Shown piece by piece: positions 12,453-60,431 of a stretch of DNA of 64,000 nt. Source of the DNA: Pseudomonadota bacterium. GTDB lineage: Bacteria > Pseudomonadota > Gammaproteobacteria > Xanthomonadales > Xanthomonadaceae. The stretch is from positions 1-64,000 of the forward strand of contig JAFEBV010000006.1 of assembly GCA_018242485.1 (NCBI GenBank), written 5' to 3'. The notes beneath the pieces are model-generated. The model was not told where the DNA came from. It saw nothing but the letters and a program-made list of their open reading frames with translations, and did not search any database. Both the position numbers and the translations under genes were made by a program. Every line of letters begins with the position of its first letter. Within the stretch, counting starts at the first letter, position 1.

Positions 12453-14288
12453 TCATTCCGACACAGGTAGCGTTTCCTGATCGTTGTCGAGCCAGCGCAG
12501 GCGCGCGTCATTCTCGCGCAGCCACGCATCCAGTCGCGCCGCAACGATGGCGTCGCCCGCTGCCAGCAGTTCGCCGTCGACTGCGAACAGCAACGGCATG
12601 CGTATGCGTGACCATGGCGGTACACCGCGATCCTGCAATACATGCTTGAGTTCGTGGCTGTGCCCGCGGCCCGGCAGGCGGATGCGTTCGCCGCCACGGC
12701 GTGCGCGTACCGTCATCGTCGCGTCGAAACCATCGACGCCGAGCAATTCGAGGCGGCTTCTATCTGGCAGCTGCAAGGCGGATTGACCATCCCATGTGGC
12801 GCTCCAATCGTTCGGCCATGCCGGCGCCGAGATGCGCGCGTGCAGTCCGTCGCGCCAACGTTGCAGCAGGCGGCTCGCCCATACGACCCGTGCTTCGCCG
12901 TCGGAACGCGCCCGCAACAGGTCGCGTTCGAGCGTCGCCAGCCATCGCCCGCCCGGCGCAAGTCCGGTCATCTGCCGCAACCAGACGCGCAGCACGCGCG
13001 CGCGCTGCGCACGCGGCAGCGCCAGCAAGCCGGGAATCGAAAGCGCGTCATCTGCGAGTTGCAACGACTTCAACGAAACTGCGACTTCGACATCCAGCAA
13101 CTGCGCCTGTTCGGCGAGCAACGCCGCGCTACGGGCGAGGCTGCGATCGGCCTGTGGCCAGCGTTCGCGCAGCAGCGGCAGCACCCGATGGCGCAGGAAA
13201 TTGCGATCGTAGGTGACGCTCTCGTTCGACGGATCTTCGATCCAGCGCAATTCATGTGCATCGGCGTATCTGCGCAACACGGATCGCGGCACATCGAACA
13301 ATGGTCGCCACAGATGCAGGCTGCCCAAGCGCGAACGACGTCGTATTGCCGCAAGACCATCGCCGCCCGCGCCGCGCAGCAGCCGCAGTAATACTGTCTC
13401 GGCTTGGTCGTCGCGGTGGTGCGCCAGTGCCAGCACTTCATCTGCGTTTAGAAGGGTGCGGAAGGCATCCAACCGCGCCGCGCGCGCCGCCGCTTCCATA
13501 CCCCGTCCTGCGTGCAGATCGACCTGAATCCGCGCGATGTCGATGCGGATGTCCCATTGCGCGCAGACTGCCTCGCAGTGTGCGGCCCACGCATCAGCGT
13601 CGGCCTGCAAGCCGTGATGGACGTGGACCGCGCGCAGGCCACGTCCACGAATCGATGGATGCGTGGCGAGCGCGTGCAGCAATACGGTCGAGTCCAGCCC
13701 GCCGCTGAAACCCACCACCAGCTTTGAATCGGGAGCTGGATGGAGCAGTGCCAAGACATCCGTTGAGTGGGGAAGCGTCGGACTGTTGCGTGGTGATTGC
13801 TTCCCGGGATCTTTCGCACTTGAATCCCCCTCTCCCGGCGCTGACGCGCCACCCTCTCCCGCATGGGGAGAGGGGAAGCAAATACCCGCGTCGTGTCGAT
13901 CGCTAGCAAGCCCCTCCCCCCTTGCGGGGGAGGGGTTGGGGAGAGGGGGCAATGAATCAGTTGGGAATGTGACGGCAGCGAGGATCTGCTCGAGCACCGC
14001 ATCGGTCGAAGTGAGAATGTCGTGATTCCAGAATCGCAGTACACGGAATCCTTGTGCTTCGAACCAGGCATCGCGACGGGCGTCGCGGGATGATTCGTTG
14101 TGCTGCCCGCCATCGGCTTCCACGATCACGCGCGATCCGAAGTGCACGAAATCGGCGATGTAAGGCCCGATCGGCTGTTGACGGCGAAATTTTTGATCGA
14201 GCAGGCGATGTGCGCGCAGGTGGTACCAGAGCAGGCGCTCGGCATCGGTCATCCGGGTGCGTAGCTGCTTGATGAAATCGTGCGTCAT
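12453..14288 (-). CDS. tilS: DUF559 nuclease-like domain joined in frame to tRNA(Ile)-lysidine synthetase TilS
   Basis: One uninterrupted frame from the ATG at 14288 encodes 611 aa. Residues 1-105 from this start match DUF559 (PF04480, Vsr/restriction-endonuclease-like): [32 protein letters not shown] and EADGGQH. Residues 113-160 are low-complexity translations of a genomic repeat ([17 protein letters not shown]). The rest is TilS: the ATP-pyrophosphatase loop SGGLDS at 195-200, HVHHGLQ, and C-terminal substrate domains. TilS makes lysidine at C34 of tRNA-Ile2. A separate TilS could start at a TTG at 13754, 16 residues before SGGLDS, the usual N-terminal spacing. The DUF559 ATG has GGGAGAGGGGG directly upstream. 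Whether a fusion protein is made is not known. E. coli TilS is about 430 aa. Confidence 0.85.
13826..13950. repeat. GGGAGAGGGG-family repeat inside the TilS composite ORF
   Basis: Two hairpin units, CTCTCCCGCATGGGGAGAGG and CCCCTCCCCC...GGGGGAGGGG, plus the tail TTGGGGAGAGGGGGC. The same units occur between genes at 20831, 23281, 28091, 43730, 50206 and 60261. Here they have no stop in the frame linking the DUF559 domain to TilS and are read as [10 protein letters not shown] and [10 protein letters not shown]. Confidence 0.9.
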
Positions 14289-14404
14289 CGCCCCCTCTCC
14301 CAAACCCACACTCCGACTCTCGCGCTTCGCACAAGCGCTCATCGTAGCGCGAGCCTGCGACTCGCAAGCGCTGCGTTTCGCCCCGCGAGGGGAGGGGCAA
14401 GACG

Positions 14405-15598
14405 TCAGCCCTTGATCACGCCCAGCTCGCGGCCGATGCGGGTGAAGGCGTCGATGGCACGGTCGAGGTGTTCGCGGGTGTGCGCGGCGCTGATCTGGGT
14501 ACGGATGCGCGCCTGTCCCTTGGGTACGACAGGAAAGAAGAATCCGATCGCGTAGATGCCTTCTTCCAGCAAGCGTGCGGCAAACTTTTGCGCGAGCGGG
14601 GCGTCGTAGAGCATCACCGGGCTGATCGGATGCACGCCGGGTTTGATGTCAAAACCAATGGCGGTCATGCGTTCGCGGAAATACGCGGTGTTGGCGACCA
14701 GCGTCTCGCGCAGTTCGCCGGCTGAGGACAGCATGTCGAAGGCCTTGATGCCCGCGGCGACCACGTGCGGCGGCAGCGAGTTGGAGAACAGGTAGGGGCG
14801 CGAGCGCTGGCGCAGCATCTCGATCACTTCGCGTTTGGCCGTCGTGAAGCCGCCGAGCGCGCCGCCCATCGCCTTGCCCAGCGTGCCGGTGATGATGTCG
14901 ATCTTGTCCAGACACCCTTTCACTTCCGCCGAGCCGCGTCCGCTCGCACCGAGGAAGCCGGTCGCATGGCATTCGTCGATGTGCACGAGAGCGCCATATT
15001 TCGCCGCCAGCGCGGTGATTTCGTCGAGCGGGGCGATGAAGCCGTCCATCGAAAACACGCCGTCGGTGGAGATCAGCTTGGTGCGCGCTCCGGCGGCATC
15101 GGCCGCCTGCAATTGCGCTTCCAGATCGGCCATGTCGCAGTTGGCGTAGCGGTAGCGTTTGGCCTTGCACAGGCGCACGCCGTCGATGATCGAGGCGTGG
15201 TTGAGCGCATCGGAAATGATCGCGTCTTCCTCGCCCAGCAGCGGCTCGTACAGGCCGCCGTTGGCGTCGAAGCAGGCGGCGTAGAGGATCGTGTCCTGCT
15301 TGCCGAAAAAGTCGGCGATGGTCTTTTCGAGCTGCTTGTGCAGATCCTGCGTGCCGCAGATGAAGCGCACCGAGGCCATGCCGAAACCGTGGCTGTCCAG
15401 CGCGGCCTTGGCGGCGGCGATGATGTCCGGATGATCGGCCAGCCCGAGGTAGTTGTTGGCGCAGAAGTTGAGCACCTGTCGCCCATCGGCCAGCGTGATC
15501 TGCGCCGACTGCGGCGAGGCGATCACGCGCTCGGACTTGAACAGCCCCTGCGCGCGGATGGAGTCGAGTTCGTCGGCGTAGCGTTGGGTGAGGGACAT
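14405..15598 (-). CDS. kbl: 2-amino-3-ketobutyrate CoA ligase Kbl (glycine C-acetyltransferase)
   Basis: 397 aa, the E. coli Kbl length. This PLP enzyme cleaves 2-amino-3-ketobutyrate with CoA to glycine and acetyl-CoA, the second step of threonine breakdown. The PLP lysine lies in [13 protein letters not shown], with [10 protein letters not shown] and [14 protein letters not shown] upstream and downstream conserved. The ATG at 15598 starts [13 protein letters not shown]. The bases before it (GGCTTCCCC) show no Shine-Dalgarno, and a 195-bp heptanucleotide array ends 9 bp upstream. The frame stays open through the array, but those 80-odd residues (FTIHDS repeats) are not part of the family. 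The gene follows tdh on the same strand, as a tdh-kbl operon interrupted by the repeats. Confidence 0.97.
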
Positions 15599-15607
15599 GG
15601 GGAAGCC

Positions 15608-15802
15608 GTGAATGGTGAATCGTGAATCGTGAACCGTGAATGGTGAATGGTGAATGGTGAATGGTGAATGGTGAATGGTGAATGGTGAATCGTGAACCGT
15701 GAATCGTGAATCGTGAATCGTGAATCGTGAATGGTGAATGGTGAATGGTGAATCATGAAGTGAATCATGAATGGTGAATCGTGAATCGTGAATCGTGAAT
15801 CG
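15608..15802 (-). repeat. Long heptanucleotide arm before kbl
   Basis: About 28 tandem 7-mers, read on the minus strand as CATTCAC or GATTCAC with occasional GGTTCAC and CATGATT variants. They end 9 bp before the kbl ATG. Units alternate between two main forms in blocks, which suggests copying by slippage. There are no stops in any minus-strand frame. The unit pairs with the short opposing arm at 15881-15910. Confidence 0.97.
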
Positions 15803-15880
15803 TTGCGGGGCTTGTCTGTGCGACGTTGCAACGTGGCAGATCAGATGCAGCCCGCACCGACGATGGTGGTCGGCTTTAAA

Positions 15881-15910
15881 CGATTCACCATTCACCATTC
15901 ACTATTCACC
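15881..15910 (-). repeat. Short opposing heptanucleotide arm after tdh
   Basis: On the plus strand four units, GATTCAC CATTCAC CATTCAC TATTCAC, form the inverse of the long arm at 15608-15802. In the tdh-kbl transcript this reads as GTGAATR units 3 bp after the tdh stop. About 78 nt of unrelated spacer separate the arms, which could form a long RNA hairpin. Confidence 0.93.
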
Positions 15911-23280: not shown

Positions 23281-23322
23281 AGCCCCTCTCCCCTTGCGGG
23301 AGAGGGGTTGGGGAGAGGGGGC
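23281..23322. repeat. GGGAGAGGGG-family repeat before the DUF455 gene
   Basis: A compact full unit: GCCCCTCTCCCCTTGCGGGA, then GAGGGGTTGGGGAGAGGGGGC. The first half forms the hairpin CCCTCTCCCC/GGGAGAGGGG. It fills most of the 82-bp gap between purF and the next start codon. Confidence 0.92.
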
Positions 23323-60260: not shown

Positions 60261-60431
60261 GCTCCCTCCCCCCCGCTTGCGGGGGAGGGTTGGGCGCGAA
60301 CCAGCGATCTGCGCCAATGAATCCCGTTGCTCCCTCCCCCGCTTGCGGGGGAGGGTTGGGGTGGGGGGCCGGCGTAAGCGAAAAAACCTCCCCCCATCCC
60401 ATCCTTCCCCCGCAAGCGGGGGAAGGGGTTT
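60261..60431. repeat. Three GGGGGAGGG-family repeats in tandem
   Basis: CTCCCTCCCCCCCGCTTGCG with GGGGAGGGTTGGG (60261-60294), nearly the same unit again at 60329-60367, and the inverse form CCCCCATCCCATCCTTCCCC with CGCAAGCGGGGGAAGGGG at 60389-60428. This is the densest copy set in the window, lying between the SleB-like gene and fadH. Confidence 0.9.

Follow-up and report, generated by a model that had tools for sequence, protein, structure and literature searches.

A DUF559 gene between inverted palindromic repeats and in frame with tilS: a candidate nuclease-repeat unit with proposed homing-type spread

Principal finding

Our study revealed a gene for a DUF559 nuclease-like protein that lies between inverted REP-like palindromes and shares one reading frame with tilS, within a 64 000-nucleotide stretch of DNA that was analysed as a whole (the window). 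We interpret this feature as a nuclease-repeat unit with a homing-type mode of spread, a reading to which we assign a probability of about 0.7. Comparison between genomes located the boundaries of the unit, paired its repeats with the nuclease gene, and found it both in frame with host genes and variably present or absent at a given site.

The fused frame and its repeats

An ORF on the minus strand (12453-14342; 629 aa, or 731 aa from stop to stop) is a single frame in which DUF559, two repeat copies and a complete TilS follow one another without a stop. Pfam placed DUF559 at residues 22-124 (E 1.6e-37; 128 bits vs a curated cut-off of 20.6) and recognized ATP_bind_3 (6e-56), the TilS substrate-binding domain and TilS_C in the TilS part, which bears out the open DUF559-repeat-TilS frame described in the initial annotation. 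The nuclease-like coding part of DUF559 (PF04480), supported by Pfam, AlphaFold2 and PDB matches, occupies 13957-14288 (minus) with its ATG at 14288, and tilS, recognized by Pfam ATP_bind_3, TilS and TilS_C, occupies 12453-13754 (minus) with a TTG start at 13754; both start positions had been given correctly. Direct reading of the sequence found this TTG to be the sole in-frame ATG, GTG or TTG between the repeats and the TilS P-loop. Of 40 relatives, 39 had a tilS orthologue. Upstream of DUF559, an ORF at 14405-15898 (minus) ends in kbl (glycine C-acetyltransferase, named from its translated sequence). The start of that ORF (15600-15880, minus strand) contains many short tandem units, a separate simple tandem repeat upstream of kbl. 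No Rfam match was obtained at this locus up to E 0.1, and no intein was matched by Pfam among the fused ORFs examined. A defence-system reading of the locus was rejected, its sole hit being a weak one to QueC in the TilS part.

The left palindromic repeat (14285-14398, minus) consists of a hairpin part at 14380-14398 and a tail at 14285-14307 (GGGTTTGGGAGAGGGGGCGATGA), separated by about 72 nt of other sequence; in G004, a second species of the genus, it is unsplit (CCCCTCTCCCCTTGCGGGAGAGGGGTTGGGGAGAGGGG). Its purine-rich tail reaches the DUF559 ATG and may provide a putative ribosome-binding site for this gene. The right palindromic repeat, an inverted copy at 13909-13950 (minus) with an arm reaching 13955, is translated into 11 residues, encodes NPSPARGEG, and also precedes tilS in G001, G002 and G004, in the same frame. 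A second copy at 13826-13877 (minus), shared with G001 and G002, is translated into 15 residues and encodes SPHAGEGG, and the proposal that a repeat supplied the stop-free linker was correct. The inverted arm on the far side of DUF559 is an addition to the initial annotation: 13933-13955 pairs with 14285-14307 over 23 nt at 91 %. The repeat bounds the DUF559 unit itself, which does not support the view of an unrelated genomic repeat joining two domains. The suggestion that such a repeat offers a route to domain fusion stands in part, in that the neighbour is joined via a stop-free repeat, but this repeat is the unit's own boundary.

Elsewhere in the window, a lone repeat that matches the consensus (23281-23321, plus) and a cluster of three hairpin repeats of related types (60262-60430, plus) occur without DUF559. 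The genome as a whole (G000) contains 44 hairpins vs 0 for a reversed control and so, like REP sequences, carries a short palindrome in many copies.

Repeats bound many DUF559 genes

One genome per species was scanned, which yielded 80 close DUF559 relatives with flanks, 78 of them with enough flank, across Gamma-, Beta- and Alphaproteobacteria and Nitrospira. Inverted repeats were found within 400 bp on both sides at 68 of these 78 loci, compared to none of 65 control flank pairs taken 1.2 kb further out, and control genes from the same genomes were likewise without them (tilS flanks 0/25; Mur-ligase flanks 0/30). Bounding inverted repeats were seen at 105 of 127 unique DUF559 loci, and a thin sample of the whole phylum gave 20/29 DUF559 loci vs 0/29 controls. 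DUF559 genes without inverted repeats were also found (L238, L239, L244, L249, L251 and L252), and the pairing characterizes many, though not all, DUF559 genes. Several of the genomes were assembled from metagenomes, and the repeats are sites of contig breaks.

The common left copy (CCCCTCTCCCCTTGCGGGAGAGGGGTTGGGGAGAGGGG) is a hairpin with its tail toward the gene, and its reverse complement forms the right copy. The distance between DUF559 proteins was correlated with that between their repeats (Mantel rho 0.48; null maximum 0.22), a correlation to which host relatedness contributes. Within the genus, copies in one genome differ in repeat type, and similar DUF559 proteins of different species have similar repeats. 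A purine-rich stretch preceded the candidate DUF559 start at 83 of 105 loci (a count without control), which suggests a putative role in ribosome binding. In G036, hairpin repeats are regularly arrayed at intervals of about 160-170 bp (C5:229469-230156 and C7:70934-71297).

The DUF559 frame remained open past the right repeat at 78 of 105 loci, with a stop at a median of 7 codons later, which indicates that DUF559 is normally without its own stop before the right repeat. In 63 of 99 cases, none of the six frames of the repeat arms contained a stop; the corresponding share was 31 % with the arms shuffled and 23 % in nearby sequence. Given a stop-free frame and such repeats, any neighbour in the same phase is joined without further change, and fusion to a neighbour is in this sense a by-product of the unit's structure.

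In-frame insertion in other genes

On contig C8 of the genome of the window (G000), a repeat, DUF559 and three further repeats lie in frame inside a Mur-ligase (cyanophycin-synthetase-like) gene. Alleles at this codon position, which come from different species, were empty in G001 (81 bp between fixed markers), held one in-frame repeat in G002 (138 bp) and held the full unit in G000 (756 bp). Outside the genus, the full unit was found in frame at this position in G082, G187, G205, G191, G043 and G059; G265 carried one in-frame repeat (a possible scar), and G221 and others were empty.

These alleles could be viewed as old, vertically inherited insertions, once mobile and now decaying, with the variation at the Mur-ligase site due to loss alone. 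The divergence of the Mur-site DUF559 copies is about equal to that of their hosts (protein identity to the own-genome copy of 54-61 % vs 56-59 % for hosts), as this explanation would have it, and lone repeats are possibly scars of decay. We nevertheless regard it as unlikely, since on a moderately supported host tree one old gain would have to be followed by 12 independent losses, several leaving a clean in-frame site, where otherwise at least six changes (gains or losses) are needed. The DUF559 copy at the tilS site, moreover, is still under purifying selection.

The unit was also found within or beside other unrelated domains. In the MmeI-type enzyme at L176, repeat, DUF559 and repeat lie in frame between the target-recognition (TRD) and C-terminal domains, and across L175, L176 (G075) and L187 (G008), all MmeI-type, the unit is placed between the TRD and the C domain or beside the latter. 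At L186 (G099:C43), DUF559 shares one ORF with type I R and HsdR-like SWI2/SNF2 domains and with the first part of a GIY-YIG domain, and DUF559 is N-terminal to SpoU/RlmB-type methyltransferases (L184 and L185) and to an EpmA-like synthetase (L174). Fusions were found by profile search and counted only when a second recognized domain was in frame; an open frame alone was not counted because GC-rich genomes give long spurious frames, and long DUF559 frames without such a domain (e.g. L180-L183 and L188-L191) were set aside. At L173 (G027:C1:356000-363000), in a genome without the CCCTCTCCC hairpin, DUF559 was seen in frame within an apparent DNA methylase, an ORF for which Pfam gave only DUF559 and the related MTES_1575.

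The DUF559 protein

The AlphaFold2 model of DUF559 (pLDDT 89) was closest among solved structures to the DUF559 protein 3hrl (TM 0.78/0.91), followed by the catalytic domain of the homing endonuclease I-Bth0305I (E 2.3e-4; TM 0.66/0.74), a match that gives the modelled protein the nuclease fold of a homing family. The resemblance to Vsr noted in the initial annotation was recovered as part of this Vsr/homing-nuclease fold, although Vsr (E 0.05), with PvuRts1I, was a weaker match than 3hrl or I-Bth0305I. Asp46, Glu57, Asp59, Gln62 and His63 were invariant in 41 homologues, and the conserved core D...E.DGGQH, together with the profile score, places the protein in PF04480.

A second explanation starts from this fold and takes DUF559 as a Vsr-like mismatch repair protein that works with a cytosine methyltransferase, the repeats serving expression or RNA stability and nothing moving. 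In Caulobacter, the DUF559 protein VsrA (CCNA_02930) causes an SOS response once the methyltransferase ScmA has been removed (PMC12907096), which is consistent with DNA cutting; the Vsr-resembling fold and long-term purifying selection also fit. This explanation seems decidedly unlikely to us, however, as it leaves unexplained the inverted repeats of matched type, the several divergent copies per genome, the in-frame insertion in unrelated genes, and the occurrence of empty, repeat-only and full alleles at one site.

The tilS site across the genus

The order kbl-DUF559-tilS was seen in G000 and G004, in one frame each, and the 3' end of kbl is the left neighbour of the DUF559 unit in both. G004 has this arrangement in a frame of 698 aa with a different linker, and the arrangement is therefore not the chance of one assembly. 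In G001 and G002, kbl-DUF559 and the end with tilS are on separate contigs broken at the repeats, with the 3' end of kbl again to the left of DUF559, and we infer the same adjacency there. Among the relatives, whose comparison the initial annotation proposed, the frame is single in G004 and a stop follows the right repeat of DUF559 in G001.

The TilS frame of G002 is open through the repeat and has no ATG, GTG or TTG between the last repeat and the P-loop, the nearest start being a GTG 40 codons upstream; for this reason, the TilS of G002 probably carries repeat-coded residues. Outside the genus, a candidate TilS start is mostly found about 17-28 residues ahead of the P-loop motif, and no DUF559 was found near tilS within the fetched flanks of relatives. 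On these grounds, the insertion probably replaced the native tilS start region, and TilS starts now probably vary between species (TTG, GTG, TTG, or inside the repeat stretch).

The DUF559 copies at the tilS site showed dN/dS values of about 0.13-0.24 (four species), and a gene under such purifying selection is no dead passenger. In one species of the genus, DUF559 is followed by a stop, which makes it unlikely that a bifunctional enzyme is required. In the genome of the window, TilS may be made either as a long form or separately from TTG 13754, and the sequences give no sign of selection for the fusion itself.

A genuine bifunctional DUF559-TilS, in which the nuclease-like domain assists TilS (in binding tRNA, for instance) and the repeat serves purely as a linker, would account for the frame being open in two species with linkers of different lengths, for the purifying selection on DUF559, and for the repeat-coded residues that the TilS of G002 probably includes. 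Nonetheless, we consider it very improbable: the fused frame was not conserved among relatives, given the stop in G001 and the lack of DUF559 near tilS in the fetched flanks outside the genus, and the DUF559 unit is also fused to Mur ligase, MmeI, SpoU and EpmA proteins. The true fusion protein put forward in the initial annotation, in the sense of a selected bifunctional enzyme, is accordingly not supported by the G001 stop or by the many unrelated proteins with which DUF559 is in frame.

Repeat load follows DUF559 and not RAYT

The repeat hairpin, sought as an exact CCCTCTCCC-N3-9-GGGAGAGGG among 119 relatives, was found in 55 of 57 genomes with full DUF559 vs 15 of 62 without (Spearman 0.79), and in the own family only, in 42/43 vs 13/28; the association tests treat genomes as independent, so their significance is inflated. 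That some genomes keep repeats without full DUF559 counts against nuclease-driven spread, and 4 of those 15 genomes carry DUF559 fragments. The association of DUF559 with the hairpin was strong within both Y1-positive and Y1-negative genomes. No association was found between the hairpin and Y1_Tnp, the RAYT superfamily (P 0.84), and the hairpin was present at 0/30 Y1_Tnp loci vs 68/80 DUF559 loci; these repeats are thus not linked to a RAYT gene as REPs are, and RAYT was rejected as their driver. If the repeats were ordinary REPs mobilized by a RAYT (Y1 tyrosine transposase), with DUF559 among them by chance, this would fit the REP-like shape and inverted pairing, which resemble RAYT-linked REPINs (PMC3116915), and the Y1_Tnp genes in many of these genomes, but on these counts the reading is so improbable that we dismiss it.

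Proposed mechanism and its generality

We return to the nuclease-repeat unit, for which the following steps are proposed. DUF559 genes would be mobile by a homing-type mechanism, in which the protein cuts a target and repair from the resident copy installs repeat, gene and repeat, with lone repeats as scars or non-autonomous copies. An insertion in the right phase would leave the host gene readable, given that DUF559 lacks its own stop and the repeats are often stop-free. In the window, the unit would have inserted between kbl and tilS immediately ahead of the TilS P-loop, giving one frame; translation of TilS would then begin internally at TTG 13754, or the protein would be a fusion tolerated at its N-terminus. 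Neither a target-site duplication nor a donor-recipient pair was found for the unit.

A parallel was seen in a GIY-YIG type with the motif VYILASxRNGTLYxG in the same relatives, with an inverted CGTCATTCC...GGAATCCA palindrome at 11 of 12 loci and the twelfth just under threshold. These loci are L271 (G000:C9:8900-9121, in the own genome), L274, L275, L277, L278, L280, L281, L284, L287, L289, L291 and L294, their genes bounded by inverted copies of the palindrome CGTCATTCCCGCGAAAGCGGGAATCCA; other GIY-YIG proteins were mostly without such palindromes. A second GIY-YIG type (L266, L267 and L269) has CCGTTCGTGGTGAGC-type repeats on its flanks. It may therefore be a general arrangement that a repeat family is paired with a small nuclease of homing type. 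We judge the odds to be about even that several families of short palindromic repeats in Proteobacteria spread independently of transposases, each driven by a small homing-type nuclease of its own (DUF559 for CCCTCTCCC-type repeats and a GIY-YIG subfamily for CGTCATTCC-type repeats), with in-frame insertion in protein genes repeatedly making chimeras that include DUF559-TilS. Such an account offers a function and lifestyle for DUF559, a common family of 'unknown function', and explains where a common class of repeats, for which the known REP transposase does not account, would come from. It also predicts that puzzling DUF559 'fusions' are products of insertion.

Comparison with known systems

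No earlier description of DUF559/COG2852 with repeats, or of the repeat sequences, was found in the open-access literature, and priority is uncertain. Rickettsia palindromic elements and similar intragenic repeats are palindromes that lie in frame in protein genes; in contrast, the repeats described here bound a nuclease gene that is also in frame with the host protein. Enterobacterial repeats are the subject of a related paper (PMC2759123). The Vsr-like (EDxHD) homing endonuclease I-Bth0305I (PDB 3r3p) provides the closest solved fold of known activity. Its type shows site-specific presence or absence in a host gene, which the empty, repeat-only and occupied alleles at the Mur-ligase site may parallel if that site is a cutting target of DUF559. 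Unlike that type, the DUF559 unit has its own inverted palindromes, occupies many loci per genome, would move by a homing that is here inferred, and has no intron or intein detected at it (Pfam on the fused ORFs; Rfam at the window locus).

Vsr and the Caulobacter VsrA share the DUF559/Vsr-like fold, and in the part of that study cited here Caulobacter DNA damage is tied to VsrA activity, although the role proposed there is repair linked to ScmA methylation and that part describes no repeat association (PMC12907096). REP/REPIN sequences with their RAYT (TnpA-REP) are alike in being short palindromes of many copies, with an inverted pair at the gene and a repeat type that matches the gene lineage (PMC3116915, PMC8266576). 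However, the gene here encodes a Vsr-like / PD-(D/E)XK-type nuclease rather than an HUH Y1 transposase and is unlinked to Y1_Tnp, and the repeats also lie within coding frames. Finally, bll5746, in which DUF559 is fused to a SPOUT methyltransferase, was called surprising in 2007 and, like DUF559-TilS, places DUF559 in one frame with an RNA-modification enzyme; in the section of that paper to which we refer, it was presented as a domain fusion and the repeat-bounded unit went unrecognized (PMC1829167).
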